DNA of 64,000 nt. Origin: Clostridiales bacterium. Its GTDB lineage: Bacteria; Bacillota; Clostridia; Christensenellales; Aristaeellaceae. The notes beneath the pieces were generated by a model, which worked only from the letters and a program-made list of their open reading frames with translations, was not told the DNA's origin and did not search any database. A program made the translations under genes and the position numbers. Below are positions 10,704-24,015 of this stretch, in pieces. Where the stretch lies: NCBI GenBank assembly GCA_012517815.1, contig JAAYUF010000133.1, forward strand, positions 1 to 64,000. Direction: 5' to 3'. Within the stretch, counting starts at the first letter, position 1. Each line of letters begins with the position of its first letter.

Positions 10704-11597
10704 TCAGTCGGTGGTCACGGCATAGCCCTTACCCAGCCAGCCGGAGCCGCCCTCTTTGCCCATGCCGCCGCTCAGGTTGTAGGCGTCGTAGCCCAGCAGC
10801 CGGAGGATCGCGGTGGTCTGCGAGGCGGTCTGGCCGGAGTAGCAGTACACGATGATCTTCTTATCGGTGGGCAGCTGGGCGGCAAAATTCTTCTCCATGC
10901 CCGCGCCGAAGGGATTGTTCACGGCGCCCTGAATGTGGCCGGTGGCAAAGTCGGCAGCCTGACGCACGGAGTAGATGAAGTAGTCGTCCATCTGGGCGTC
11001 GATGACTTCCTTGAGGCTGTCGGGCGCGAAATTGTTGTTGGCAAAAGCGGTGCCGGCTTTGGAAACCATATCGCTGTAATAGGCGGTGATGGCGGCCTGC
11101 ACGTCCGGGTCCACGGCGTAGGTGTCGGTGGGCAGCGCGGGGCCGGCGTCGGTGGTCACATACTTCTCAAAGCCTTCCGTCGCGGAGATGCCGTTGTTGA
11201 AGCCGCCCTGCACGTTGGTGGCGAACTTGCCGGCCACGTTGAGCAGCGCCGTGGTCTGGGAAGCCGTCTGGCCGGTGTAGCAGTACACGTAGAGGTGGGT
11301 ATCGTCCGGGATGTTGGCGAGGCTCTCAGCGATGGTCATGCCAAACGGCACGCTGACGGCGCCCTTCACGTGGCCCTCGGCGTACGCGTCCGCCTGCCGG
11401 ATGTCCAGAATCATCATGTCTTCGCCGGCGTCGATCTGGGCAAAGAATTCGGGAGCCTTGATGGTGTACTTGGTGCCATCGTAATTGGCGAGGTAGTTCA
11501 TGGCCTTTTCAGCCACCACGGGGGACACTTCCGCCAGCGCGGCGGTCACACCGACCAGCATCGTCAGGCAAAGCACCAGGGACAAGAGCTTTTTCAT
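10704..11597 (-). CDS. Exported tandem-rhodanese sulfurtransferase
   Basis: Protein of 297 aa with a signal peptide (residues 1-22, ending ALA) and two rhodanese domains, about 45-150 and 190-297. Each has a full active-site loop: CYTGQTAS with Cys106 and CYSGQTAS with Cys252, so both halves could carry a persulfide. The loop sequence with polar residues is common in GlpE/PspE-like rhodaneses. It is expected outside the membrane. It follows another exported rhodanese by 29 bases, forming a two-gene operon. GAAGGAGAG precedes the start. Confidence 0.9.
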   Translation of the reverse strand: MKKLLSLVLCLTMLVGVTAALAEVSPVVAEKAMNYLANYDGTKYTIKAPEFFAQIDAGEDMMILDIRQADAYAEGHVKGAVSVPFGMTIAESLANIPDDTHLYVYCYTGQTASQTTALLNVAGKFATNVQGGFNNGISATEGFEKYVTTDAGPALPTDTYAVDPDVQAAITAYYSDMVSKAGTAFANNNFAPDSLKEVIDAQMDDYFIYSVRQAADFATGHIQGAVNNPFGAGMEKNFAAQLPTDKKIIVYCYSGQTASQTTAILRLLGYDAYNLSGGMGKEGGSGWLGKGYAVTTD

Positions 11598-11626
11598 AGT
11601 GGTTTCTCTCCTTCAGTCAATGGGTT

Positions 11627-12556
11627 TTAGGACGCGTCTTTATTGCTGGGCGCAACCGTGCCCGAGGGAACGTCGATGGGGTAATTGGGATTACTGGACC
11701 ATTCCAGGTACGCGCCGTCGTAGATTTTCAGGTTCCGGTAGCCCGCGTCGTACAGCCTGAGGAAAACCGGCGCGGCGCGCATGGAGGTCTGGCAGTACAC
11801 GATGATGCTGTTCTCCGGCCGGATCCCCTGGTTGAGGTAGTTGATCCGGGTGGTTTCGACGGTTCTAAACGTCCCGTCCTTGTAGAAATTGTCGGCGTAG
11901 TCCCACAGGATGGAGGACGGCACCTTGCCGGATGCCTGGTATTCGGCTTCGGTGCGCACGTCCAGCAGGATGGTGTTCTTATCGGGTTCGTTCACCTGCG
12001 CAAGCACGTCCTCCGCCGTCGCCAGCCAGGCGGTGTCCTTCTCCCCGGCGATATATTCCGCGGGGACGATCGCGGGCAGCGCGTCGGTGAGCGTATTGCC
12101 GGCGGCTTTCAGGGCGGCGAGCCCGCCGTCGACCACCACGACGTTCTGGTTGCCGTACATCAGCATCGTCCAGAAGAAGCGCGCGGCGTTCATCCTGTTG
12201 TCGTCATAGACCACCAGCGTGGTGTCGTTGCCGATGCCGCGCTCGCTCAGGAGCTTTTGCAGCTTGTTTTTGGAGGTGAGCATGTTCTTGACGGGGATGT
12301 TGATGACGATATCTTCCTGCGTGATGTGGACCGCGCCCGCCACGTGACCGGCCGCGTAGGCTTCGGCGGACTGCATGTCCACAATCGTCACCTGATCCTT
12401 GCCAAGGTAGGCGGCGAATTTCTCGGCCAACATGGCGGGGACGATCTTCTTGCCGCTCTCCGCGTAGGTGGATGTGTTGCAGGCCGTCAGCGAAAAGGCG
12501 GACGAAAGCAGCAACAGCAGCGCGATTGCCGTTTTCCATGGACGTTTGATGGACAT
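11627..12556 (-). CDS. Rhodanese-family lipoprotein (SseA-like, N-terminal domain inactive)
   Basis: Protein of 309 aa with a lipoprotein signal peptide (lipobox SLTAC, Cys26), so probably anchored on the outer face of the membrane. Two rhodanese domains follow. The first has DDNRMNA where the active Cys loop should be and is probably structural; the second has CQTSMRA with Cys255. That arrangement is the thiosulfate/3-mercaptopyruvate sulfurtransferase pattern. GGAGGAGG precedes the start. It is the promoter-proximal gene of the rhodanese operon. Confidence 0.88.
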   Translation of the reverse strand: MSIKRPWKTAIALLLLLSSAFSLTACNTSTYAESGKKIVPAMLAEKFAAYLGKDQVTIVDMQSAEAYAAGHVAGAVHITQEDIVINIPVKNMLTSKNKLQKLLSERGIGNDTTLVVYDDNRMNAARFFWTMLMYGNQNVVVVDGGLAALKAAGNTLTDALPAIVPAEYIAGEKDTAWLATAEDVLAQVNEPDKNTILLDVRTEAEYQASGKVPSSILWDYADNFYKDGTFRTVETTRINYLNQGIRPENSIIVYCQTSMRAAPVFLRLYDAGYRNLKIYDGAYLEWSSNPNYPIDVPSGTVAPSNKDAS

Positions 12557-12591
12557 GGTATCCTCCTCCGTTCCCCTATGGGCTCTTGTGC

Positions 12592-12635
12592 TATTATACC
12601 GGATTCCCGTTTGTTAAGGTAATAACGATACCTTA
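12592..12635 (-). promoter_or_regulatory. Promoter and inverted-repeat operator candidate for the rhodanese operon
   Basis: TATAAT on the minus strand (12592-12597) is a consensus -10 box 36 bases upstream of the start codon. The region where a -35 box would sit contains a perfect dyad TAAGGTA (12615-12621), 7-base spacer, TACCTTA (12629-12635). A symmetric site over the -35 position suggests regulator binding. No regulator gene is adjacent. Confidence 0.55.
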
Positions 12636-12681
12636 TATACCATACCGCTTTGTAATGCCGCGAAACGTGCCCCGCCTGTGG

Positions 12682-12726
12682 TATAATGCGTTGACGGGAA
12701 ACCGGCCCGCGCCGGGCGTTTCCCGT
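12682..12726 (+). promoter_or_regulatory. Promoter -10 box and leader hairpin of the GT-C gene
   Basis: TATAAT at 12682-12687 is a -10 box for plus-strand transcription, with no strong -35. Immediately downstream, ACGGGAAAC (12694-12702) and GTTTCCCGT (12718-12726) form a 9-bp stem that would lie at the very 5' end of the transcript, with no U-tract. This may stabilise the message or be regulatory. Confidence 0.5.
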
Positions 12727-12770
12727 TCGCTCCCCCAGGCCCGGGGAAGCCGGAAAGGACGGATCGCCCC

Positions 12771-14324
12771 ATGCGCACGCACAGGAAGGAACGGACCCTC
12801 GTGCTCGGCTTTCTGGCCGTGTGGTTCGTTTTGAACCTTATCTTCCTGACCCGCTTTCCGCTGGTGCACTCCGACGAGGCCTGGCTGTCCGGGCTTACGC
12901 GCAACATGCTGGCCAGCGGTTCCCCGGCCGTCACGGAGCCGTTTTTTGATCTCAAGCCCCGCTACCCGCACGCGATCAAGATTCTGTTTCACCTGTTGCA
13001 GATGCCCTTCCTCCTGATTTTCGGCGATACGGTTTTCGCGGTGCGGCTGCCGTCGCTGCTGGCGGGGGTCGCGGCGCTGTATCTGGTGTTCCGCTGTGCC
13101 CGCGCGGTCGCTTCCTTTTGGCTTTCATTGGGCGTTGCGGTTCTGGTGTCGGTGTGCGGGCCGTTCATCGACGCGTCGCACACGGCGCGGCAGGAGATCC
13201 TGCTGTTTGTGATGCAGCTTATGCTGCTGTTGCCGCTCCTGCAAAGCGGGGGCCGCGTCACCGGGCGTCTTTGCGCGCGCCTGGGCCTGCTCGCGGGGCT
13301 TTCGGCCGGGCTGCACCCCAACGCGTTCCTGCTGGCGCTGGGCGGCGGCGGCGCGCTGGTGCTGATGATGCTGGTCCGCCGCCGTTTCAGGCTTCGGCCG
13401 CTGCTGGGGTATATCGCGGTCACCGGCGGCGTGGCGCTGGTTTTCGTCGGGCTCAGCTTCCTCTTTGATCCTCAGTTCCCCGCGCATTACGTGCGCTATG
13501 GCCAGACCGAATTTGACCTCGTGGTGCCGGTTGCCGACAAGTTTCAGGCGTTTGTGGGGTATCTGGGGCGGCTGTGGCGGGGCGAAAGCGGCACGTACGT
13601 CCTGCCCGATCTCCGGCCGCTGATGGCGCTGGCGGCGCTGCTGATCCCGTCGGGCATAGCGCGGGCCTTCCGCAAGAGAGATGCGGCGCCGGCCGTGATC
13701 GCGGGACTGGCGCTGGGCGCACTGCTGGGCACGATCCTCATCGGGCGGTACAATCAGCTGAGCGCCGCGCTGTGGTTGCTCCCCTGCCTGCTGCTGGTTG
13801 CGCCGCTGCTTTCCGGCAAGCGTCTGGCCGCGATCGCGCTGCCCGCCGTGACCGCCGTATTCGCGCTGGCGGCCGTCCCCGGCATCCGCACCGCCGCCGC
13901 GTACCCCTACGAAACGTACCTCTCCCAGATCGCCAGGTACGCGTCCCCGGAGGACAAGGCGCTGGCCAACCTCAACGCCGGCTTTTTCTTCGAGAACGGC
14001 CGTCTGCTGGATGTGCGCAACCTTTCCTATTTGAAAGAAAATGGGCTGACGTTCCAGCAGTACGTGCAAAGCCGGGGGATTGAAGTGATCCTCTGGTCTG
14101 GCGAGATGGACTACCTCTACCGCCGCCGCCCGGATTTCAACACCGTCTACGGCAACCTCCGCTATGTGGAGGAAGCGGAGGCGTTTTTCGCGGAACGCTG
14201 CACGCTGGTCGGCTCCTTCGAAAACCCGGGGTATGCCGTGCGCCTCGCGCAGGAAATCGGTAAGCCTTACCGCGTCGACGTGTATCGGGTGAATCCGTCG
14301 GCCGGTTCCGGGGTCGCGCCCTGA
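12771..14324 (+). CDS. GT-C fold membrane glycosyltransferase (GT39/ArnT-like)
   Basis: Large membrane protein (517 aa) with about ten hydrophobic segments and a C-terminal non-membrane tail. The first extracytoplasmic loop has FPLVHSDEAWLSG with the acidic pair expected to be catalytic in GT-C enzymes that transfer sugars from lipid-phosphate donors (PMT, ArnT, RgtA types). No substrate can be assigned. A GT2 polyprenyl-phosphate-mannose-synthase-like enzyme is encoded nearby at 18260-19012, which could supply the lipid-linked donor. The start follows AAGGACGG. Confidence 0.8.
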   Translation: MRTHRKERTLVLGFLAVWFVLNLIFLTRFPLVHSDEAWLSGLTRNMLASGSPAVTEPFFDLKPRYPHAIKILFHLLQMPFLLIFGDTVFAVRLPSLLAGVAALYLVFRCARAVASFWLSLGVAVLVSVCGPFIDASHTARQEILLFVMQLMLLLPLLQSGGRVTGRLCARLGLLAGLSAGLHPNAFLLALGGGGALVLMMLVRRRFRLRPLLGYIAVTGGVALVFVGLSFLFDPQFPAHYVRYGQTEFDLVVPVADKFQAFVGYLGRLWRGESGTYVLPDLRPLMALAALLIPSGIARAFRKRDAAPAVIAGLALGALLGTILIGRYNQLSAALWLLPCLLLVAPLLSGKRLAAIALPAVTAVFALAAVPGIRTAAAYPYETYLSQIARYASPEDKALANLNAGFFFENGRLLDVRNLSYLKENGLTFQQYVQSRGIEVILWSGEMDYLYRRRPDFNTVYGNLRYVEEAEAFFAERCTLVGSFENPGYAVRLAQEIGKPYRVDVYRVNPSAGSGVAP

Positions 14325-14553
14325 AGGACCAGCCGGTGTTCCCCGCCGCTAGCGGCCACGCCGGTTTGCCGCGCAGGTCGTATCGGCCATCGGTCATCCC
14401 TGTGCGTGCGCAACAGCCCCAAATCTCCCCCCGGCATCCGACGCCGTCGCCTGCCGGGCAGAAGCCCCAACGCAAAGGCGCGCCGGGCGTCCAAAACGTG
14501 CCGTAAACGCGGCGCGCAGCGACGGCCGGCCGGTTCCGCCCGCTTCCGGCGGT

Positions 14554-15258
14554 TCAGTCCCCCATGAGCCTGCGAAGCCGCTCCCCGACGTCCGGGCCCT
14601 GGTTCTCCACCATTGCGAAGATGCCGCGCGTTTCAGCCTTCATCAGGGCGATGCGCGTGCCCAGCGCCGCCGCCTCCTCCAAATCGTGCGTCACGATGAC
14701 CACCGCCGCGCCGGTCGCGGCCGCGAGCGTCGCCAGCGCGCCGCGCGCGCTCTCCCGCGACAGCACGTCGAGGCTGGAAAACGGCTCGTCCATGAGCAGC
14801 GCCTTGGGGGCCACGGCCATGGCGCGCGCCAGCGCACCGCGCTGCTGCATCCCGCCGGAAAGCTGATAGGGGTACTTGTCCCCGGCATCCTCCAGCCCCA
14901 TTTGCGCCAGACACTCCCCGGCGATCACCCGCGCCTCCCGCCCGGAAATCCAGGGGCGGGTTTTCCGCAGCGCAAAGGTCAGGTTCCGCCGGAGCGTAAA
15001 CCACGGAAAAAGCTGATCGAAGCTTTGGAACACCATCCACCGGTCCTTGTCGGGCGCGTCGACGGGAGAACCGTCCAGCGTCACCGCGCCGCCGTCGGGC
15101 TTTATAAACCCGGCCAGGATTCTCAGCAGCGTGGTTTTTCCGCAGCCCGACCGCCCGACGATCGCAAGCGTCTCCCCGCTTTGCACGACAAGGCTTACCT
15201 GCTCCAGCACGCGCTGTCCGCCGTAGGCGTGGTTGACGCCTTCCGCCGCGAGGATCAT
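14554..15258 (-). CDS. Nitrate/sulfonate/taurine-type ABC transporter ATP-binding protein
   Basis: ATPase (234 aa) of the SsuB/TauB/NrtD family. Walker A GRSGCGKTT, Q-loop in MVFQSFDQLFPW, signature LSGGMQQRGALARA, Walker B ALLMDEPFSSLD and H-loop VTHDLEEA are present. The QLFPW stretch after the Q-loop is typical of this family. It is the last gene of an operon with permease and binding protein, overlapping the permease by 4 bases. The start follows AAAGGGGG. The substrate could be a sulfonate, an aromatic or a thiamine precursor. Confidence 0.9.
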   Translation of the reverse strand: MILAAEGVNHAYGGQRVLEQVSLVVQSGETLAIVGRSGCGKTTLLRILAGFIKPDGGAVTLDGSPVDAPDKDRWMVFQSFDQLFPWFTLRRNLTFALRKTRPWISGREARVIAGECLAQMGLEDAGDKYPYQLSGGMQQRGALARAMAVAPKALLMDEPFSSLDVLSRESARGALATLAAATGAAVVIVTHDLEEAAALGTRIALMKAETRGIFAMVENQGPDVGERLRRLMGD

Positions 15259-16073
15259 ACGCCCGCCCCCTTTCCCGCGCCGGCGCTCCGCGTGCGCAGG
15301 GTGCGGCGTTCCAGCCTTTCAAAGACCAGGCCCTCCACCGCCATGCCGATCACCGCCACGGTCACGATTCCCGCGAACAGGCCGGCGGTGTTCATCATCG
15401 CGCGCTGTTTGAACAGGTACCAGCCAAGCCCGCCGTATGCGCCGATGGCTCCGAACACCATCTCCGCGCTGATGAGCGCCCGCCAGGCCCGGGCCCACCC
15501 GATCCTGAGCCCCGTAACCGCCTGGGACAGCGCGGCGGGCAGCAGAATTTCCAGCACGATTCCGATCCGGCTCATGGAAAGGTTCCGCCCGATATCCGTA
15601 TACAGCGGGGGCGCGTCGCGCATGCCGCCCTGGAGGCTGACCAGCAGCGGCCAAAGGCAGGCGTGCACGATGACCACCGTTACCGCCGGCGTGCCGGTGC
15701 CAAACCAGATGACGATCAGCGGCAGCAGCGCCATTCCCGGCAGGGGATGGGCCATTACGGTCAGGGCGTCCGAAAACCTGTCCGCGAAAGGCCAGAGCTG
15801 GGCGGCAACGGCCATCAGCAGCGCAAGCGCCGCCGCGATCGATAGCCCCAGGACGATCACGCCCAGCGAAAACAGCGTCTGCATCAACAGCGACCCCGTG
15901 ACAAACCCTTGCGCCAGCACGCGCGCCACCGTTTCCACCCGCGGCAGCAGCAGGGGGGAAACCGGCCCAAAGGCAGCCGTCAACTCCCACAGCAGCAACA
16001 GAAGTCCGAAGAAGAACAGCCGGCTCAGCCAACGCTTGCGGTAAAACGCCCCGCGTAACGTTTGCCGGTTCAC
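15255..16073 (-). CDS. Nitrate/sulfonate/taurine-type ABC transporter permease
   Basis: Permease (272 aa) of the SsuC/TauC family with about six membrane segments. The EAA-like loop GRNLSMSRIGIVLEILLPAALSQAVTGLRIG is followed by GWARAWRALISAEMVF, both diagnostic. Start codon is GTG at 16073 with AGGTGAG upstream; it overlaps the binding-protein gene by 4 bases. It forms the channel for the substrate captured by the upstream lipoprotein. Confidence 0.9.
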   Translation of the reverse strand: MNRQTLRGAFYRKRWLSRLFFFGLLLLLWELTAAFGPVSPLLLPRVETVARVLAQGFVTGSLLMQTLFSLGVIVLGLSIAAALALLMAVAAQLWPFADRFSDALTVMAHPLPGMALLPLIVIWFGTGTPAVTVVIVHACLWPLLVSLQGGMRDAPPLYTDIGRNLSMSRIGIVLEILLPAALSQAVTGLRIGWARAWRALISAEMVFGAIGAYGGLGWYLFKQRAMMNTAGLFAGIVTVAVIGMAVEGLVFERLERRTLRTRSAGAGKGAGV

Positions 16074-17023
16074 GGGCTCACCTCGACGCCGGGAAAGGCG
16101 TATGCGTCCGCAGACGGGGCCCGGGTCAGCAGCCCGATCTCCGCCATGGCGGCGGCAAACCCGTCCACGCCCTCCAGCGCGGTGCCGTAGATGGAGCCGT
16201 TGTAGGTCATCTCTGCCAGCAGCGTCCCTTCCGCCACGCCGTAGCCCGGCGCGAGGCGTTTGGCGGCGGCGGGCAGGTCGGCGTTGATGCCGTCCACAGC
16301 GGTTTGCAGGCAGGCCCGGAAGGCGTCGTACAGCGCGCGCCGGTTCAGGTACAGGTCGGTCATCGCGACGCCGCAGATGAACGTGAACGGCCTGCCCGTC
16401 ACCTGCTGCCCGGTCAGGATTTTGTGCATGCCGGCGGCCAGTTCCATCTCCGCGTACGGCGGGGTGGTGATGTGCAGGGCGATTTCCCCGCCGGCCAGCA
16501 TGGCGCTCATCGCGTCCGGGTGGCTCAGGGACACCAGCCGGCTGTCAAACGCGTCCGCGCTTCCCAGCTGCTGTTGGGCCGCCATGCACAGCAGGATGTG
16601 CTGGGTGCTTCCGGGGCTCAGGATCGCGATGCGGTCCTCCGGCCCCAGGTCGGCCAGGGTGCGGATATCCTTCCGGTTGGTGATGAAGGATACCTCGTTG
16701 GCGGACAGCGCGGTGAAGCACTTCCACGGCATGCCCGTATCCACGCCGATCAGCATCGGGCCGATGCCCATGAAGCCGATATCGATATCGCCGGAAAGCA
16801 TCCCCTCGCGGATCGCGGTCGGCCCGCCCATCTGCACCCAGCGCACCGTGACATCCGGCAGGGCTTGTTCCAAAAGCCCGTCCTCCTTCATGACCTGCAG
16901 GGGCGCGTAGGCAATGCCGAACTGCTCCGCGATCGTAAGCGTTTTGCGCGGCGCCGGGCCGCAGGCGGTCGCCGCAACCAGCGCGGCCCAAAGGCAGGGG
17001 ATCAGCAACAACCGTTTACGCAT
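16070..17023 (-). CDS. ABC transporter substrate-binding lipoprotein, NMT1/SsuA-like
   Basis: Binding protein (317 aa) with lipobox AATAC (Cys21). The fold is the NMT1/SsuA type: AEQFGIAYAPLQVMKEDGL early, GGPTAIREGMLSGDIDIGFMG as the ligand-domain signature, and ILSPGSTQH. Such proteins bind sulfonates, nitrate, pyrimidine precursors or other small acids. It overlaps the ATP-grasp gene by 8 bases. The tight coupling to a GT2 and an ATP-grasp gene is unusual and leaves the ligand open. Confidence 0.88.
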   Translation of the reverse strand: MRKRLLLIPCLWAALVAATACGPAPRKTLTIAEQFGIAYAPLQVMKEDGLLEQALPDVTVRWVQMGGPTAIREGMLSGDIDIGFMGIGPMLIGVDTGMPWKCFTALSANEVSFITNRKDIRTLADLGPEDRIAILSPGSTQHILLCMAAQQQLGSADAFDSRLVSLSHPDAMSAMLAGGEIALHITTPPYAEMELAAGMHKILTGQQVTGRPFTFICGVAMTDLYLNRRALYDAFRACLQTAVDGINADLPAAAKRLAPGYGVAEGTLLAEMTYNGSIYGTALEGVDGFAAAMAEIGLLTRAPSADAYAFPGVEVSP

Positions 17024-18278
17024 CGGACAACCCTTCCCCGTCGTAGGTTCTTGGTATCGCCAGATTATCTCCCCGGGCGTCCTCGATCCGCAGCGCGCGG
17101 TACAGGGCGCGCACCCGCGCGTCCATATCGCCTCGGTCCGTCGTCAGCACGCAGTGACCAAACCGTGCGGTCGCGTTTTCCATAGCCGAAAGGCGCGCCC
17201 CGACCGGGTAATTGTAGCCCGCCGCCAGCACGCCCGGCAGGGTCAGCAGTTCCTTCACCGCCGTGTAGGCCGCGACGGTTCCGGGCTTGCAGAACAGCAT
17301 CTGCACCGACGCCTGAAACCCAGGCGCGGCGGCCTGCGGCCGTTCCAGCGCATCGGTGGGGACGGGCTGTCCCAGCGCCTCGCCGATTACCGCCCGCAGC
17401 ATGTCAAAGCCCGTCAAGTGCGGGATGATCACATCCTCAAACGCCCCGCCGAGGCGGCATGCCGCCTCGTTGACCCAGACGCCCCGCGCCCCGATGAGCA
17501 GCTGGATATACAAAGGCCCCTCCATTGCGCCCAGCGCCCGCGCCACGTCCCATGCGATCCGGTTGATTTCGGCCGCCTGCGGCGCGTGGATGCTTGGGTA
17601 ACGGTGCGCCGCGCAAACGCCGATGTGCACCGGGTCGTTGAGCAGTTGCCGGTCGGTCAGCATCAGCGGGTAGACGCGGCCGTGGTGCGCCCACGCGGAG
17701 AGGGTCACCTCGTCGGAGGGGTAGAAGGTTTCCACCAGCGCCGCGTCTTCGCGGGAGAAGGAGAGGGTTTCTTCCAGCCGTTCCAGCGCCTGGCGGGCTG
17801 TCGTCACCCGGAACACGCCGCGCTGCCCCTGCGAGTCCAGCGGCTTGATCACCAGCGGCGGCGTCAGCCCCGCAAGGGCTTCTTCGCCCTGCCCGCGCCG
17901 CAGGTAGGCAAACGGCGCGTGCGGCACTCCCTCCCGCCGGAAGGCCTCCTTCATCGCGCGCTTGTTGGTGGCCCGTAGCGCCGTTTCCACCGTGATGGGC
18001 GAGGGCAGCTCCAGCGCCTTTGCCACCCGCGCGGCCGTGTACACCGGCTGATCCGTTCCAACGGTGAAAACCCCGTCGATCCGATGGCTTCGCGCGGCCC
18101 GGATGCAGGCTTCCGTATCAAATGTGCTCACGCGCTCGTGCCTGTCGCAAAGGGCCGCGGCGGGCGGGTTGGGCAGATAGTCCGCGAGGATCAGGCGGTG
18201 TCCCATGGCCTTGGCCGTCCGGGCTGCGGACAGCTGGCAGTTGGAGCCGCCCAGCAGCATCAGGGTTGCCACAGCCAT
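17016..18278 (-). CDS. ATP-grasp carboxylate-amine ligase-like protein
   Basis: ATP-grasp enzyme (420 aa). The N-terminal PreATP-grasp Rossmann-like segment has LLGGSNCQLSAARTAKAMGHR, then VIKPLDSQGQRGVFRV for nucleotide binding and GVWVNEAACRLGGAFEDVI with the metal-binding Glu/Asn residues. This resembles carbamoyl-phosphate-synthase-like ligases that form amide or peptide bonds on small molecules. GGGGAGGGG abuts the ATG at 18278; a GTG at 18272 has better spacing. It overlaps the GT2 gene by 19 bases and the binding-protein gene by 8. The product is unknown. Confidence 0.85.
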   Translation of the reverse strand: MAVATLMLLGGSNCQLSAARTAKAMGHRLILADYLPNPPAAALCDRHERVSTFDTEACIRAARSHRIDGVFTVGTDQPVYTAARVAKALELPSPITVETALRATNKRAMKEAFRREGVPHAPFAYLRRGQGEEALAGLTPPLVIKPLDSQGQRGVFRVTTARQALERLEETLSFSREDAALVETFYPSDEVTLSAWAHHGRVYPLMLTDRQLLNDPVHIGVCAAHRYPSIHAPQAAEINRIAWDVARALGAMEGPLYIQLLIGARGVWVNEAACRLGGAFEDVIIPHLTGFDMLRAVIGEALGQPVPTDALERPQAAAPGFQASVQMLFCKPGTVAAYTAVKELLTLPGVLAAGYNYPVGARLSAMENATARFGHCVLTTDRGDMDARVRALYRALRIEDARGDNLAIPRTYDGEGLSDA

Positions 18279-19012
18279 CCCCTCCCCGCGACGGTTTCAT
18301 ACGCGCACGGCTCCGCGCAGGCGCCGCGCCGCCGGAACGCCTTGAGCGGCGTGTAGTGCGTTGCCAGTCCCCCGTACATCCTCAATAGCGCGGGCAGCGT
18401 GTAGGTCGACGGTTGCGCGCCCGCGCCGGCTTCGTAGCGCACGCAGGCAACCGTCGGTTTTAACGCCAGCGCCGCCGCGGAAAGGTAGATGTAGCCGTCC
18501 GGCTCGGGCTGCAGCTGCCGGGCCAGCGCGCGGGTCATCACCCGGTACGCGCCGACCCTCGCGCCGTCGCGCGCGCCCAGGCAGAGGGCGAACAGCATAT
18601 CCCGCGCCAGCGCGCCCAGCCTGCGGTGCAGAGGATACCGTCTGCGCCGCGCAACCGCATAGCATACCTGCGCGCCCTCGTGAATTCGGCGGAGCATTTC
18701 GTCCAGCAGCGCGACGGGATGCGCGCCGTCCTGATCCATGGTGGCGATCACGTCGCAGTCCGCCAGGTGCCGGATGCCCAGCCAGAGCGCGCGTTGCTGC
18801 CCGACGTTTTCCGGCAGCAGCAGCGCGGTCACACCCGGCCGCCCGTTGGCCAGGGTTTGCACCGCTTCGCGGCTTGCGCCGCCGCTCCCGTCCTCCACCA
18901 GCACCACGCGGCAGCGGAGTTCCCGTTCCCGGGCGTATCGCGCCAGCGCTTCCACCACCGATCCCACGCTCTCCCCGCCCCGATAGACGGGGATCACAAC
19001 CCCTAACGTCAC
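18260..19012 (-). CDS. Family 2 glycosyltransferase (polyprenyl-phosphate glycosyltransferase-like)
   Basis: GT2 catalytic domain (250 aa). It starts LGVVIPVYRGG, has VVLVEDGSGG and the metal-binding ATMDQDGAHP (DxD region), and the acceptor region has GAYRVMTRAL, like dolichol-phosphate mannose synthases and ArnC. There is no C-terminal membrane domain. The start is GTG at 19012 because GAGGAGG lies 8 bases upstream (about 19020-19026); the frame is open further upstream but codes for low-complexity Gly/Ala/Arg. First gene of an operon with ATP-grasp and Ssu-like transporter genes. Confidence 0.85.
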   Translation of the reverse strand: MTLGVVIPVYRGGESVGSVVEALARYARERELRCRVVLVEDGSGGASREAVQTLANGRPGVTALLLPENVGQQRALWLGIRHLADCDVIATMDQDGAHPVALLDEMLRRIHEGAQVCYAVARRRRYPLHRRLGALARDMLFALCLGARDGARVGAYRVMTRALARQLQPEPDGYIYLSAAALALKPTVACVRYEAGAGAQPSTYTLPALLRMYGGLATHYTPLKAFRRRGACAEPCAYETVAGRGWLWQP

Positions 19013-19206: not shown

Positions 19207-19434
19207 ATGCGCCGTCTGGACTGCCTTGGGGATATGTGCCCCCTGCCGCTGATGAAGCTGATGCAGTGCCGCGAGCAGATCAACCGCGGCGAAACGGTCC
19301 TGATCGTGACCGATCACAGCTGCACCTGCGAATCCCTGATCTCCTACTGCCACAAGCAGCGCCTGCCCATCATCGTGGCGGAACCCGTCCCCGGCGTGTG
19401 GGAAATCTCCATCGCGCCGCCCCAAGAACCCTAG
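19207..19434 (+). CDS. TusA-family sulfurtransferase
   Basis: Small protein of 75 aa with the TusA/YeeD/YedF signature DMCPLPLMK (CPxP) near residues 10-18; the first cysteine normally carries a persulfide passed to partner proteins. Three further cysteines lie in SCTCESLISYC. The ATG at 19207 follows AAAGGAGGGG. It is convergent with the LysR gene, overlapping its 3' end by 4 bases, and close to a second tusA in the YeeE locus, suggesting a shared role in sulfur or selenium trafficking. Confidence 0.9.
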   Translation: MRRLDCLGDMCPLPLMKLMQCREQINRGETVLIVTDHSCTCESLISYCHKQRLPIIVAEPVPGVWEISIAPPQEP

Positions 19435-20330
19435 CAGATGGTGGTGGGCACCATGTTCTCAAAGTATTTCTTCACCATGGCCATCTGAAAATTCCCGTTC
19501 TCCGTCTTTTGCTTGTAGACGATGGACACGTCGTAGCGCAGGCAGAAGTTTTCGGTATCGACGATTTTCAGCTGCTGGAGGTAAATCTCCTTCTTGACTG
19601 CCATGTAGGGCAGGAAGGTAAGCCCGTTGCCGCTCATCACCATCGACTTGACCGACTCGGTGGAATCCAGGTGGTAGGACACCTTGAACTGATCCAGATC
19701 ATACCCCATGCTTTTCAGCTGGTCCGCCATCATGCGGTAGGAACTGAAGCTCTCGTCCAGCAGCACCAGCGGGTGATGCTTGAGCCCCTCCACCGAAAGG
19801 CTCTGGCGCACGGTGTAATCCTTGGCGGCCACCAGCACCACCTGATCGGAAAATACGTTTTTGCAGAACAGCTCCGATTCCTGCGTTTCGCCGACGATGA
19901 AGCCGATATCCGCCTGGCTGCCCAGCACCTGCCGCAGCACCTCCCGCGAGGGCATGGAGGCCAGGGTGAAGGTGAAATCCGGGAACTTTTCCTTCGCCTT
20001 GACCAGCGTGCAGGGGATGGCGTAATTGGCCGCCACCTGCGTCGCCGCCACGCGGCAGGTATCGTTGTGGTTGCGCAGGTTGTGCAGTTCTTCCACAAAC
20101 TGCTCATAGGTGAACATCAGCTGCGCGGCATAGCGTTTTGTTATCATGCCGGCATCTGTTAATTGTATTCCTCTATTGCTGCGTTCAAACAGGCGACATC
20201 CCAGCGCGTCCTCCAGCTTCTGCATTTGCAGGCTCAGCGCGGGCTGGGAGATGTGCGAGGCATTGGCGACCTTGGAAATGCTTTTTTCCTGAGCGATCTT
20301 CATGAACAAAGCCAGATGTTCCAGCTGCAT
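19431..20330 (-). CDS. LysR-family transcriptional regulator
   Basis: LTTR of 299 aa. The N-terminal winged helix reads QEKSISKVANASHISQPALSLQ, followed by LEDALGCRLFERSNRGIQLTDAG, the canonical LysR pattern. The C-terminal effector domain is periplasmic-binding-protein like. It is divergent from the YeeE/TusA/flavoprotein operon, so it probably controls that operon, in the manner of CysB-like regulators sensing a sulfur metabolite. The effector is not known. Confidence 0.93.
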   Translation of the reverse strand: MQLEHLALFMKIAQEKSISKVANASHISQPALSLQMQKLEDALGCRLFERSNRGIQLTDAGMITKRYAAQLMFTYEQFVEELHNLRNHNDTCRVAATQVAANYAIPCTLVKAKEKFPDFTFTLASMPSREVLRQVLGSQADIGFIVGETQESELFCKNVFSDQVVLVAAKDYTVRQSLSVEGLKHHPLVLLDESFSSYRMMADQLKSMGYDLDQFKVSYHLDSTESVKSMVMSGNGLTFLPYMAVKKEIYLQQLKIVDTENFCLRYDVSIVYKQKTENGNFQMAMVKKYFENMVPTTIC

Positions 20331-20436: not shown

Positions 20437-20554
20437 ATCAGATTGTGATAAATATATCTAATACAGTACAATCAACTTCGATGCTGCACTTGCCAGCCCC
20501 CATGCTATAATGGTCACCAGTGAAAGCCGCCGGAATTCCAACCTTTCCGGCGGC
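20437..20554 (+). promoter_or_regulatory. LysR-type operator, promoter and leader hairpin of the YeeE locus
   Basis: Between the divergent LysR and yeeE-like genes lies the dyad ATCA-GATTG-TGAT (20437-20449), a plausible LysR box. TATAAT at 20504-20509 is the plus-strand -10 box with no good -35, as expected for an activated promoter. The first bases of the transcript form a perfect 10-bp hairpin, GCCGCCGGAA (20526-20535) with TTCCGGCGGC (20545-20554), just ahead of the ribosome site. Confidence 0.6.
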
Positions 20555-20572
20555 AGCATGGGAGGTGCTTAC

Positions 20573-21253
20573 ATGTCTGAGCCTTCGACCGTCCGGGCGA
20601 GGCCGGCCCGCAAAAAGAAAAGGAACCAATTGCCTATCGGTATTCTGGTATTTGTAATCATGATCGCGATCGGGCTGCTGCTGAGCCTCAGGTCCGGCCA
20701 GCTTGGCATGTTCTGGCTGTTCGGCGGGTGTTTTGGCTTCATCCTGCAAAAGTCGCGGTTTTGCTTTACGGCGTCGCTGCGCGATCCCTGCATTACGGGC
20801 AGCACCTCTATCACCAAGGCGGTGCTGATCGCCTTCGCCATCACCACCGTCGGCTTTACCGCCATCAAGTACAGCGCCTTCGCGGCGGGCCTGCCGATTC
20901 CGGGGCAGAGCTACGTGATGCCGGTGAGCCTGGCGACGGTCGTGGGCGGCGTGATGTTTGGCGTCGGCATGGTTATCGCGGGCGGCTGCGCGTCCGGCAC
21001 GCTGATGCGTGTGGGCGAAGGCTTCGCCATGCAGATGCTGGCGTTGGTGTTCTTCGTGATCGGCTCGCTCTGGGGCGCCAAGGACATGGGCTGGTGGAAC
21101 CTCAACGTGATCGCCGGCGCGCCGCGCGTCTTCCTGCCGGACGTGTTCGGCTGGTTCGGCGCCCTCGTGATCCAGCTCCTGATCATCGGCTGCCTGTATG
21201 TGGCGGCCGACCTGTGGGAGCGCAAAAAGCTGGGCACAACCGACGAGTCCTAA
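20573..21253 (+). CDS. YeeE/YedE family membrane protein, first half-channel
   Basis: Membrane protein (226 aa) with about five hydrophobic segments. The YeeE/YedE signatures are FGGCFGFILQKSRFCF (Cys53, Cys64) and GMVIAGGCASGTLMR (Cys139). YeeE proteins import thiosulfate by passing it along conserved cysteines and hand it to a TusA-type partner; YedE has been linked to selenium. Full-length YeeE is about 330-350 aa, so this looks like one half with the other half encoded at 21596-22144. The ATG at 20573 follows GGGAGGT; a start at 20510 is unsupported. Confidence 0.85.
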   Translation: MSEPSTVRARPARKKKRNQLPIGILVFVIMIAIGLLLSLRSGQLGMFWLFGGCFGFILQKSRFCFTASLRDPCITGSTSITKAVLIAFAITTVGFTAIKYSAFAAGLPIPGQSYVMPVSLATVVGGVMFGVGMVIAGGCASGTLMRVGEGFAMQMLALVFFVIGSLWGAKDMGWWNLNVIAGAPRVFLPDVFGWFGALVIQLLIIGCLYVAADLWERKKLGTTDES

Positions 21254-21310
21254 GGCTCGCGGCGGACCGGCGCAACAGGCACCCAACAAAAATCATAGGA
21301 GGATACAAAC

Positions 21311-21532
21311 ATGGCTGAATTCGAACTGGATTGCATGGGCGAGGCTTGCCCCGTACCCCTGATGAAAACCGAAAAGAAAATGAACACCCTGAGCGCCGGC
21401 GACGTGCTGGTGGTGCACATCGACCACAGCTGCGCGATGAAGAATGTGCCCGAGTGGGCGCGCAAACAGGGCTACAACGTCGAGGTCGAGGAAGTGGACG
21501 ACGGCGAGTGGGACGTCATCATCGAGAAATGA
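21311..21532 (+). CDS. TusA-family sulfurtransferase, second copy
   Basis: Protein of 73 aa with the CPxP motif GEACPVPLMKTEKK (active Cys13) and a TusA alpha/beta sandwich. It sits between the two half-size YeeE genes, exactly where a YeeD/YedF-type partner would be expected, and AGGAGG precedes its start. It likely receives a sulfane sulfur (or selenium) from the channel. It differs clearly from the TusA at 19207 and has only one further cysteine (HSCAMKN). Confidence 0.92.
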   Translation: MAEFELDCMGEACPVPLMKTEKKMNTLSAGDVLVVHIDHSCAMKNVPEWARKQGYNVEVEEVDDGEWDVIIEK

Positions 21533-21595
21533 CGCCCCCGCGCCCCGGGTGTCCCCCGGCCGCCCGGCACCCTTTGAAAGGAAGGTAGTGGGACC

Positions 21596-22144
21596 TTGAA
21601 ACAGCTTTGGGAAAAGATCAGCAAAAACCGTTACTATCAGATGGTTTTTAAGAATCCCTTCACCTACATCACCGGCGCCGTGCTGCTCTCCATCACCCAA
21701 ATCGCCCTGTTCGCCTATTCCGGCAACCCCTGGGGTGTTTCGGGCACCTTCGCCAACTGGGGCGCGTGGCTATACCAGCTGTTCGGCGGCAGCGTGGAGA
21801 AGTGGTTCTACTTCTCCACGTCGGGCGCACAGGCCACGCTGGACGCGGGCATCCTCAGCCACACCGGCACGATGCTCAACGTGGGGATTATCTTTGGCGC
21901 GCTGCTGGCAACGCTTCTGGCGTCCCAGTTCAAGTTTAAAAAGATCAAATCCCTCAAGCAGGTAGTCGCGGCGGTGCTGGGCGGTCTGCTGATGGGGTAC
22001 GGCGCCCGTTTGGCCGGCGGCTGCAACATCGGCGCTCTGTACAGCGGCATCGCGTCGCTCTCCCTCTCCGGGTGGGTGTTTGCGGCCTTCCTGCTGGTCG
22101 GCGCCTTCATCGGCAGCAAGCTGCTGGCAAAATTCTTTATGTAA
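21596..22144 (+). CDS. YeeE/YedE family membrane protein, second half-channel
   Basis: Membrane protein (182 aa) with about four hydrophobic segments and the YeeE signature GYGARLAGGCNIGALYSGI (Cys143). Start codon is TTG at 21596, preceded by GAAAGGAAGG; no ATG in frame gives the full N-terminus. It presumably pairs with the protein at 20573-21253. The split into two polypeptides flanking a TusA gene is unusual compared with single-chain YeeE. Confidence 0.83.
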   Translation: MKQLWEKISKNRYYQMVFKNPFTYITGAVLLSITQIALFAYSGNPWGVSGTFANWGAWLYQLFGGSVEKWFYFSTSGAQATLDAGILSHTGTMLNVGIIFGALLATLLASQFKFKKIKSLKQVVAAVLGGLLMGYGARLAGGCNIGALYSGIASLSLSGWVFAAFLLVGAFIGSKLLAKFFM

Positions 22145-22168
22145 TCGTAGGAAGAAGGAACGGGTGAA

Positions 22169-23395
22169 ATGGATAAGAAAGTAGAAAATTACGACGTTGT
22201 GATCATCGGCGGCGGCGCGGCCGGCATGACGGCCGGCATCTACTGCGGCCGCGCGCGGCTGAAGACTTTGATCATCGAGAAGGCGCTGGTCGGCGGTCTG
22301 GCCACCTACACCAACGAGATCGAAAACTATCCCGGCTTCCCCGAGGGCAGCACGGGCCTTGGGCTGATGGAGCTTTTCCAAAAGCAGGCCAAGAAATTCG
22401 GCGTCACCTTCAAGCTGACCGACGTGCGCGACGTGCGGCTGGAAGGCAAGGACAAGGTTGTGGAAACCTTCCGCAACGAGTTCCACTGCAAAGTCGTCAT
22501 CATCGCCTCCGGCGGCAAGCCCCGCCTGACCGGCGCGCCCAACGAGGATAAGTACCTGTATGACAAGGGCATCTCGTTTTGCGCCACGTGCGACGCGGCC
22601 GCCAACACCGGCAAGACCGTCATGGTCATCGGCAGCGGCGACGCGGCCATCGAGGAAGGCATCTTCCTGACCAAGTTCGCCAGCCGGGTGATCGTATCCG
22701 TGCTGCACGACGAAGGCGTGATGGACTGCAACGAGATCGCCAAGGGCGAGGCGATGCGCAACGAGAAGATGGAGTTCCTCTGGAACACGACCGTCGCCGA
22801 GTTCAAAGGGGACGACGAGCACCTGCACGCCGTCGCGCTTAAGAATTCCAAGACCGGCGAGATCACGGACGTACCGGTGGATACGTGCTTCGTCTTTATC
22901 GGCTATCTGCCCAACACCGAGCTGTTCCGCGGCATGATCGACATGACGCGCGGCGGGTACGTGATCACCAACGAGAAGATGGAAACGCGCATCCCCGGCG
23001 TGTTCTGCGCGGGCGACGTGCGCGACAAGTTTCTCAAACAGGTGGCTACGGCCGTGGGCGACGGCGCCATCGCGGGCTACGCGGCGGAGAAATACATCGC
23101 CGAGAGCGAAATGTTCGAAAACCAGATCATGGGCGAAACACCCCGGCTGGTCTACGTGTACAACGCGGCTTCCGCGGGCGACCGCGAAACGCTGAGCATG
23201 ATGGAGCAGTACGAGCAGTGCCACTGCGACCTGCAGTTCATCAAAGCGGACGTGTACAAGTCCAACGGCATCGCGCAGCGCCTGAATGTGACACAGACGC
23301 CCTGCGTCGCCTACATTCGGGACAATCAGGTGGTCGGCTGCGTTTCCTGCGGCGACATCTGCCCCGCCGCAATCGATACGCTGGTCGGCCGCTGA
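22169..23395 (+). CDS. Thioredoxin-reductase-like flavoprotein with C-terminal thioredoxin-fold-like extension
   Basis: Pyridine-nucleotide disulfide oxidoreductase (408 aa). The FAD motif VVIIGGGAAGMTAGIYCGRA, redox CxxC in SFCATCDAAA (Cys138/Cys141), NAD(P) motif VIGSGDAAIEEG and FCAGDVRDK complete a TrxR core to about residue 322. The last 85 residues resemble a degenerate thioredoxin fold: VYVYNAAS in place of the usual CGPC site, and a cis-Pro-like TQTPCVAYIRD. That tail ends in a Cys-rich motif, GCVSCGDICP. It is 24 bases after the second yeeE half, suggesting it reduces the persulfide or a channel/TusA partner. Confidence 0.85.
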   Translation: MDKKVENYDVVIIGGGAAGMTAGIYCGRARLKTLIIEKALVGGLATYTNEIENYPGFPEGSTGLGLMELFQKQAKKFGVTFKLTDVRDVRLEGKDKVVETFRNEFHCKVVIIASGGKPRLTGAPNEDKYLYDKGISFCATCDAAANTGKTVMVIGSGDAAIEEGIFLTKFASRVIVSVLHDEGVMDCNEIAKGEAMRNEKMEFLWNTTVAEFKGDDEHLHAVALKNSKTGEITDVPVDTCFVFIGYLPNTELFRGMIDMTRGGYVITNEKMETRIPGVFCAGDVRDKFLKQVATAVGDGAIAGYAAEKYIAESEMFENQIMGETPRLVYVYNAASAGDRETLSMMEQYEQCHCDLQFIKADVYKSNGIAQRLNVTQTPCVAYIRDNQVVGCVSCGDICPAAIDTLVGR

Positions 23396-23574: not shown

Positions 23575-24015
23575 ATGCAACAGTTCATCGACAACCGGCT
23601 TTACGACACCGAAACAGCCAAACCCATGGGCAACTGGCAGCGCGGCTTCAGTTCCGAGCGCGGCTATATTTCCGAAACCCTGTACCAGACGCCGGAGGGG
23701 GAGTATTTTCTCCACGGCGAAGGCGGCCCGCGCTCCCGCTACGCCCAGCGCACGGCGCCCAACACCTGGGGCTACGGCGAGCGCCTGATCCCCTTTTCCA
23801 ATGAGGAAGCGCACGAGTGGGCGGAAAACCACCTGACCGAGGACGCCGTGCACACGGCCTTTGTGAAAAAGGGCTACGACGGCTGCATGACGCCGATGAT
23901 GATCCACCTCCGTTGCGGCACGGCCGAAAAGCTGACCCGGCTCGCCGCCGAGCAGGGCCGCCAGCCTTCGGAGCTGGCCGAGGAAATGATCGCCAAGGGG
24001 CTGAGCGCCGAATAA
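23575..24015 (+). CDS. Conserved protein of unknown function
   Basis: Protein of 146 aa, start preceded by GAAGGAGGGG. The N-terminal half, with FIDNRLYDTETAKPMGNW, the SERGYISETLY turn, GEYFLHGEGGPRSRYA and IPFSNEEAHEWAENHL, resembles a small family common in Bacillota, often on mobile elements; I know no function for it. The C-terminus (LRCGTAEKLTRLAAEQGRQ onward) looks like a ribbon-helix-helix or short helical segment. No neighbour clarifies its role. A 14-bp stem with a single T-G wobble (24067-24101) follows. Confidence 0.7.
   Translation: MQQFIDNRLYDTETAKPMGNWQRGFSSERGYISETLYQTPEGEYFLHGEGGPRSRYAQRTAPNTWGYGERLIPFSNEEAHEWAENHLTEDAVHTAFVKKGYDGCMTPMMIHLRCGTAEKLTRLAAEQGRQPSELAEEMIAKGLSAE

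Follow-up and report, generated by a model that had tools for sequence, protein, structure and literature searches.

Organization of the operon

The window analyzed here, a stretch of 64,000 nucleotides from a Clostridiales bacterium (Christensenellales, Aristaeellaceae; GenBank assembly GCA_012517815.1, contig JAAYUF010000133.1, positions 1 to 64,000 of the forward strand), contains an operon of four genes in which the two halves of a YeeE-type channel are encoded separately, with a TusA-type sulfur carrier gene between them and a flavoprotein gene at the end. It is a real, conserved and apparently unstudied operon, a form of YeeE-TusA uptake that has a dedicated reductase, inside a larger and widely conserved gene island of anaerobic bacteria. 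All four genes lie on the + strand. The first (20573-21253, 226 aa) encodes the N half of the channel, YeeE-N, and the second (21311-21532, 73 aa) a TusA/TsuB-like carrier with Cys13 in a CPxP motif and Cys41 in a DHSC motif. The third (21596-22144, 182 aa, TTG start) encodes the C half, YeeE-C. The fourth (22169-23395, 408 aa) encodes a thioredoxin reductase (TrxR)-like flavoprotein with a CATC dithiol (Cys138/Cys141), the sequence HDExxMDCN at the NADPH motif site and a thioredoxin-fold tail without CxxC (23123-23392), recognized from predicted structure and profiles. The intergenic gaps measure 57 nt (YeeE-N/TusA), 63 nt (TusA/YeeE-C) and 24 nt (YeeE-C/flavoprotein). Open reading frames (ORFs) were called mechanically, and this gene order agrees with that of an initial annotation made from the sequence alone.

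That annotation implied a start of YeeE-N at 20510, which we have corrected to 20573. The ATG at 20510 falls inside TATAAT (20506-20511, + strand), a candidate -10 box, and the start codon at 20573 has a GGGAGG ribosome site upstream, so that 20573 is the more likely start. Counting from it reproduces the cysteine numbering proposed initially, and the positions of Cys53, Cys64 and Cys139 in YeeE-N and of Cys143 in YeeE-C were confirmed.

The channel halves

In the PF04143 profile of 310 positions, YeeE-N covers positions 1-157 and YeeE-C positions 164-310 (104.3 and 124.6 bits, cut-off 27); one family is therefore cut in its middle. No places matching PF04143 were found in this genome besides the two halves. 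Gene fission by sequencing error was ruled out, because the halves are separated by a stop, by a ribosome site and by a complete TusA gene, and because 70 of 71 relatives are arranged alike.

Profiles made from 20 YeeE-N and 20 YeeE-C relatives matched, at E up to 0.01, only the solved Spirochaeta thermophila YeeE and YeeE-YeeD chains (four distinct sequences each). YeeE-N aligns to residues 7-130 of S. thermophila YeeE and YeeE-C to about 229-328. In these profile alignments Cys64 corresponds to Cys22, Cys139 to Cys91 and Cys143 to Cys293, which are transport cysteines of the solved protein (Cys91 and Cys293 are named in PMC11582611, Cys22 in PMC11073785). All three are invariant in the alignment of the half concerned (20/20 rows each). 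With the TsuA models NF041049/NF052577, scores were 70.6/66.5 and 58.4/38.6 bits, below the cut-offs of 400/645, and each half covers only part of the model.

The halves match positions 180-383 and 4-159 of the YedE/FdhT profile NF033796, the reverse of the gene order. In E. coli YedE, YeeE-N corresponds to residues 180-319 and YeeE-C to 32-164; in TsuA the matching residues are 12-120 for YeeE-N and 251-336 for YeeE-C. Because each half aligns to opposite ends of these proteins, YedE and TsuA carry the halves in opposite order. In E. coli, YedE (L013, 10278-11483) and TsuA (L014, 3468-4526) represent a circular permutation within PF04143, a term absent from the open-access papers among the matches listed. 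Split genes also occur in both orders, with L074 as an example of C then N. The initial statement that YeeE is normally one chain was misleading, as split forms are common in the genomes sampled and already published; a split YedE was reported in archaea (Lin et al., PMC5322559). The split of YeeE/YedE as such is thus already known; no description of the operon, with the reductase and the island that belong to it, was found among the open-access papers listed, judged from titles and abstract openings.

The TusA carriers

The TusA of the operon scores 88.9 bits with PF01206 (cut-off 28.6), and its Cys13 and Cys41 are invariant in 20/20 rows. The TusA-type partner YeeD cleaves thiosulfate and is essential for uptake by YeeE, and in E. 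coli YeeD both corresponding cysteines, that of CPxP and a later one, mattered for growth on thiosulfate (PMC11073785). A second TusA gene (19207-19434, + strand), convergent with the gene of a LysR-type regulator, has kept CPxP and DHSC, whose cysteines are invariant in 18/18 aligned rows. Two TusA ORFs in series with equal scores follow YeeE-N in L067 (6904-7414), and a double TusA was also seen in L112, L116, L120, L133, L136, L137, L139, L148 and L157.

The flavoprotein and its tail

The core of the flavoprotein matches Pyr_redox_2, and CATC is present in 67/67 homologues. In a fold search covering residues 3-315 the best matches were TrxRs (2q7v and 7aaw; Z 35.4-35.5, rmsd 3.6-3.7 over 309-311 residues). 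The NADPH motif of TrxRs is HRRxxxRA. At its expected place the flavoprotein has HDExxMDCN, with H180, D186, C187 and N188 invariant in 67/67 homologues; in three operon members of greater distance, C187 is replaced by Ala. The acidic residue after the strand at this site suggests NADH as cofactor. The flavoproteins of the operon form one clade (support 98/99, 31 rows) in a tree whose outgroup branches are long and whose root is unsure. A second tail-bearing TrxR in the family lies beside a thioredoxin gene in L006 (1462-2670, - strand) and shares the HDEG..DCN motif; another neighbour encodes what we take to be a GrdX-like protein. In L072 (1449-3222) a flavoprotein 83% identical to ours is preceded by a TusA-like gene, with no YeeE halves in the stretch examined. 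L062 (genome G302) also carries the operon flavoprotein (68% over 406 residues).

The initial annotation described the C-terminus as a degenerate thioredoxin-like domain, and a check set beforehand upheld this. The last ~85 residues were modelled as beta-alpha-beta-alpha-beta-beta-alpha with a predicted local confidence score (pLDDT) of 88-93. A profile of the tail finds thioredoxins, such as the designed Trx-3 (5.6e-21), a reconstructed ancestral thioredoxin (1.1e-13) and the deposited thioredoxin 7xao (1.8e-11). Of 33 tails scanned with the Pfam Thioredoxin model, 31 matched at E up to 0.1, with E no better than 0.06 for the window tail. The alignment comprised 66 tail-bearing flavoproteins of 395-430 aa, from which cut, longer and broken ORFs were excluded. 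The window tail reads S-A-G-D at the place of CxxC, which is missing in 66/67 aligned homologues. The second Cys of this place is kept in 15/67 tails, and L140 and L141 have a CxxC three residues further on. With CxxC in place in one of 67 rows, its second Cys in 15 and the motif displaced in two, the tail resembles a decayed thioredoxin. All 67 rows keep P378, which occupies the cis-Pro place.

The Cys-rich end reported for this protein is present in the window, but its full form occurs only there and in the closest relatives (L071/L078, L072), and partly in L085. As Cys394 is found in 4/67 rows and Cys398 in 7/67, a conserved redox site at this end was ruled out.

Distribution

The named-genome sample consisted of the best 80 of 399 YeeE-C relatives, and loci are counted as having room where enough flanking DNA was available to show the neighbour. 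The best 80 include Clostridia of many families, 17 genomes titled Spirochaetes, two Halanaerobiales, three Paenibacillus and two metagenome-assembled genomes (MAGs) of Anaerolineaceae. YeeE-N was present in 71/71 loci with room and TusA in 70/71. TusA lies between the halves in 69 loci by script; L089, where two ORFs make up the N half, is one more, and L110 lacks TusA. The flavoprotein was found in 71/73 loci with room and the LysR gene in 52/62. The dedicated reductase proposed initially is thus a stable operon partner.

In addition, 58 of 291 genomes of the class have PF04143 above cut-off. N-TusA-C split loci, picked by eye, occur in 22 of them besides this one, and 15 of the 22 have the flavoprotein (tail-less in two). 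Among the picked loci, that of G326 ends after TusA and the operon of G128 lies on two contigs; G122, G222 and G199 were excluded from the count, having N-C pairs without TusA between. A single-chain YeeE in the same islands adjoins a CoA-disulfide-reductase-like protein of about 565 aa, a parallel pairing of channel and flavoprotein.

Regulator and leader

The LysR-type regulator is encoded divergently (19431-20330, - strand). A motif scan found a candidate LysR box, TAATACAGTACAA, at 20459-20471. The pattern TTATACwGYATAA occurs in 26/55 leaders between LysR and YeeE genes, compared with a mean of 1.4 and a maximum of 5 after shuffling; it was drawn from seven leaders, of which five match, and 21 of the 48 others match. 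Divergent control by LysR, as initially suggested, is therefore supported by candidate sites in about half of the leaders examined. Since YeeE-N more likely starts at 20573, the hairpin at 20526-20554 (+ strand, 10 bp stem) lies in the 5' leader. Folding of the 57-nt leader gives -25.6 kcal/mol (z -2.84), a stability reached by 1/200 shuffles. The stem is partly kept in L078, of the same genus, and by eye none was seen in five other leaders. The hairpin, earlier considered as a possible control, is therefore real and stable but, as far as seen, no broadly conserved control element, and it was rejected as a general regulatory element.

The gene island beside the operon

Beyond the LysR gene lies an island (10704-19012) that, like the second TusA, the initial annotation did not mention. 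It contains a GT2 glycosyltransferase (18260-19012, - strand, likely GTG start at 19012), an ATP-grasp ligase (LAL_C2; 17016-18278, - strand), and an SsuABC-like transporter composed of an SsuA-like substrate-binding protein (16070-17023, - strand), a TauC/SsuC-like permease (15255-16073, - strand) and a TauB/SsuB-like ATPase (14554-15258, - strand). A 517-aa PMT-like membrane protein follows (12771-14324, + strand), matched by BLAST to ORFs in the same loci as L105:414-2081, itself a weak match to Pfam PMT_2. Finally, there are two two-domain rhodaneses, one with a lipobox-like N-terminus (LTAC; 11627-12556, - strand) and one with a signal-peptide-like N-terminus (10704-11597, - strand). On the other side of the operon, a 146-aa ORF (23575-24015, + strand) has no Pfam match, and its weak RelB-like match is below cut-off.

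These genes recur beside YeeE in other families. GT2 and/or ATP-grasp genes were found in 36/48 named loci with at least 11 kb examined, 13 of them as a fusion; in the same 48 loci, DegT was found in 32, PMT-like proteins in 16, the binding protein in 16, the permease in 10, the ATPase in 7 and rhodaneses in 12. In the window, no DegT was seen where it usually lies. The fusion measures 626-696 aa in 12/13 fusion loci, for instance L079:254-2230 (- strand), and 446 aa in L089, with a DegT sugar aminotransferase adjoining. Among the named loci having 4.5 kb downstream, 19/58 have a rhodanese within the stretch examined. Rhodanese N-termini, judged by eye, mostly look exported, many with a lipobox-type Cys, and this includes both rhodaneses of the window. 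The PMT-like protein often adjoins exported rhodaneses (for example L101:10521-12083 and L105:414-2081). The order rhodanese, PMT, ATPase, permease, binding protein, ATP-grasp, GT2 is repeated in G191, G222 and G149 and reversed in G243.

The window ATP-grasp ligase has 15 strong matches in the 291 class genomes, counting itself (203 bits or more, against 143 for the next). All 15 genomes have YeeE above cut-off, 11 of them within 10 kb (hypergeometric 4e-11 for co-occurrence, a value that ignores kinship, five of the genomes being of one family). This specific ATP-grasp ligase is tightly linked to YeeE.

Proposed function

We consider it probable, on balance, that the operon encodes a system under LysR control for the import of sulfane sulfur, thiosulfate being the likeliest form, and for its reduction in the cytoplasm. 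The proposal draws on gene content, order and conservation, cysteine positions, the predicted fold of the tail, the loss of the NADPH motif and the linkage to the island. Exported rhodaneses would prepare or present sulfur on the outer face. YeeE-N and YeeE-C would assemble into one channel, whose Cys64, Cys139 and Cys143 would hand sulfur species inward. TusA would dock at the cytoplasmic exit of the channel and accept the sulfur on Cys13. The flavoprotein, presumably NADH-linked, would then reduce the loaded TusA through its CATC dithiol, and sulfide would be released. The tail without CxxC would dock a partner and transfer no electrons, and the second TusA may pass sulfur on to other users. 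The three transport cysteines, the TusA cysteines, the stable reductase partner and the LysR box make a unit for import and reduction reasonable. The complete relay of the initial annotation stands to this extent, but a relay through the fused thioredoxin domain is unsupported, given the tails that lack CxxC and the two members that have no tail.

Several observations limit this reading or weigh against it. A linked chain model of YeeE-N, TusA and YeeE-C was of low confidence, with a mean pLDDT of 52.4 and a predicted template modelling score (pTM) of 0.39, from a 9-row alignment of which three rows were junk in the TusA part; a 64-row alignment of the separate halves was left unused, its YeeE-N rows being misplaced onto the homologous C half. 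Six sampled N-TusA-C genomes lack an adjacent flavoprotein, a seventh ends before it at the contig end, and the second N-TusA-C copy of G191 also lacks the flavoprotein. Two otherwise orthologous flavoproteins, L046 and L049, have no tail; they group with the tail-bearing L044 and L050 (support 91/87), which fits a loss. The sole tail in which CxxC occupies the thioredoxin place belongs to a Spirochaetales MAG (L114:6545-7768); it runs counter to a role in docking only in that protein, and may be of an ancestral type. AsrC, which would use up sulfite, was not found in this genome (7 of 34 candidates scored), and none was above cut-off in 16/22 carriers. Both channel halves score best with YedE/FdhT (107.8 and 103.3 bits, below the cut-off of 350) and not with TsuA. 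The best model of the regulator is NF040786, selenium metabolism-associated LysR (187.8 bits, below the cut-off of 250). Finally, selD is enriched in the split carriers (15/22, against 50/268 others; Fisher p 2e-6, ignoring kinship, as do the other tests on selD and asrC).

The last three points favor a selenium importer, in which the YedE-like halves would import a reduced selenium compound, TusA would carry it, the TrxR-like protein would keep selenide for SelD and LysR would sense selenium. YedE and a LysR subfamily have been tied to selenium (Lin et al. 2015, PMC5322559), and this genome is among the 66 of 291 class genomes with selD above cut-off. For split carriers with the flavoprotein, the counts are 8/15 against 57/275 others (p 0.007). 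We nevertheless find this alternative unlikely. All these scores lie below the curated cut-offs, rhodaneses recur as neighbours, and E. coli SelA, SelB and SelD had no match in the examined flanks of the 80 loci. Moreover, selD is not above cut-off in 7/22 sampled carriers, including G062 and G141 (99% complete) and G169 (96%), and because of these carriers selenium cannot be the general role. Of the two substrates named initially, thiosulfate or selenium, the genomic evidence thus points to sulfur as the favored element, with selenium less likely, even though selD is present here. The distribution of AsrC speaks for the sulfur reading: it was found in 24/291 genomes, in 6/22 carriers against 18/268 others (p 0.005) and in 4/15 flavoprotein carriers against 20/275 (p 0.03). 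In Halanaerobium, a rhodanese and Asr were proposed to convert thiosulfate to sulfide, with proteomic and culture support (PMC5497025), and Halanaerobiales MAGs are among the carriers of the operon.

The same machine could instead use zero-valent sulfur or polysulfide, delivered by the exported rhodaneses, and not thiosulfate. The exported-looking rhodaneses near the operon and the lack of an AsrC hit for sulfite among the candidates scored here agree with this, and similar proteins are said to take up zero-valent sulfur (PMC11582611). However, thiosulfate is what the solved relative transports and what the TusA-type partner of that relative cleaves (PMC11073785), and the three channel cysteines are the same as there. 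We regard zero-valent sulfur or polysulfide as an improbable substrate.

A wider scheme, which we hold to be quite doubtful, would make the operon one arm of a sulfur-scavenging island so far undescribed. The ATP-grasp, GT2, DegT and PMT-like proteins would produce an amino-sugar conjugate, linked to lipid or protein, at the cell surface, perhaps a thiol; this conjugate and the exported rhodaneses would capture extracellular sulfane sulfur and feed the split YeeE, TusA and the non-NADPH reductase, and the SsuABC-like transporter would return a product. It is very unlikely that the imported sulfur goes into a product of the ATP-grasp, GT2, DegT and PMT-like proteins and not to sulfide. The frequency of these genes at the named loci and the presence of YeeE in every genome with a strong ATP-grasp match speak for such a biosynthetic supply, but Paenibacillus (L134, L142, L153) and Eubacterium callanderi (L111) have the core without these genes in the stretch examined, the linkage may reflect shared regulation alone, and no family name found belongs to a sulfur-inserting enzyme. 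Finally, that the flavoprotein is a housekeeping thioredoxin reductase, there by chance, is extremely unlikely: it keeps the core CxxC and its score with TIGR01292 (thioredoxin-disulfide reductase; 313.7 bits) is just below the 343.45 cut-off, but it accompanies the operon across phyla, falls in a separate clade whose NAD(P) motif is changed, and the genome has other TrxR-like matches.

If import and reduction of sulfane sulfur is indeed the function, gut and subsurface fermenters would gain a means of exploiting thiosulfate or polysulfide, either as a source of sulfur or as an electron sink, and of making sulfide. Where the NADPH motif has been lost, the reductase carries a conserved Cys that is unusual; its thioredoxin fold, which mostly lacks the active site, would be a case of a fold kept for docking.

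Comparison with known systems

YeeE/TusA uptake is best known from single-chain assimilation transporters; the operon described here joins a two-chain version to a dedicated reductase, in bacteria of several phyla. The closest comparison is TsuA-TsuB (YeeE-YeeD) of E. coli and S. thermophila (PDB 6leo/8k1r), which shares the N-then-C order, the three channel cysteines and a TusA-type partner that has CPxP and, like the E. coli protein, one further Cys. The window differs in having two chains, a TusA gene between them and an added flavoprotein, and its scores are below the TsuA cut-offs. In PmpA/PmpB, YeeE-like halves are likewise on separate genes and a heterodimer was proposed (PMC11582611). 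However, PmpB has one conserved Cys, whereas YeeE-N of the window has both N-half cysteines, and the window has TusA between the halves and its own reductase. The selenium-associated YedE/FdhT and YedE (TIGR04112) are similar in that both halves score higher with YedE/FdhT than with any other curated model. They differ in the order, C then N in YedE, and in the window the scores are below the cut-offs and no sel genes were found in the flanks. PF04143 therefore exists as N-C single chains, C-N single chains and split halves, a record of circular permutation, possibly by way of split intermediates.

For the reductase, TrxB (2q7v, 7aaw) shares the fold of residues 1-319 and the CATC dithiol, but the window flavoprotein has lost the NADPH motif, carries the degenerate tail and sits in an operon-specific clade. 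In Thermotoga maritima, NSR, identified by its likeness to archaeal NAD(P)H-dependent enzymes, is a cytoplasmic NAD(P)H flavoprotein that reduces thiosulfate or sulfur and is upregulated with yeeE (PMC9431562). There, nsr and yeeE, the latter in a yeeE/dsrE/tusA cluster, have distant locus tags (PMC9431562), while in the window the channel, its carrier and the putative reductase are joined in one operon.

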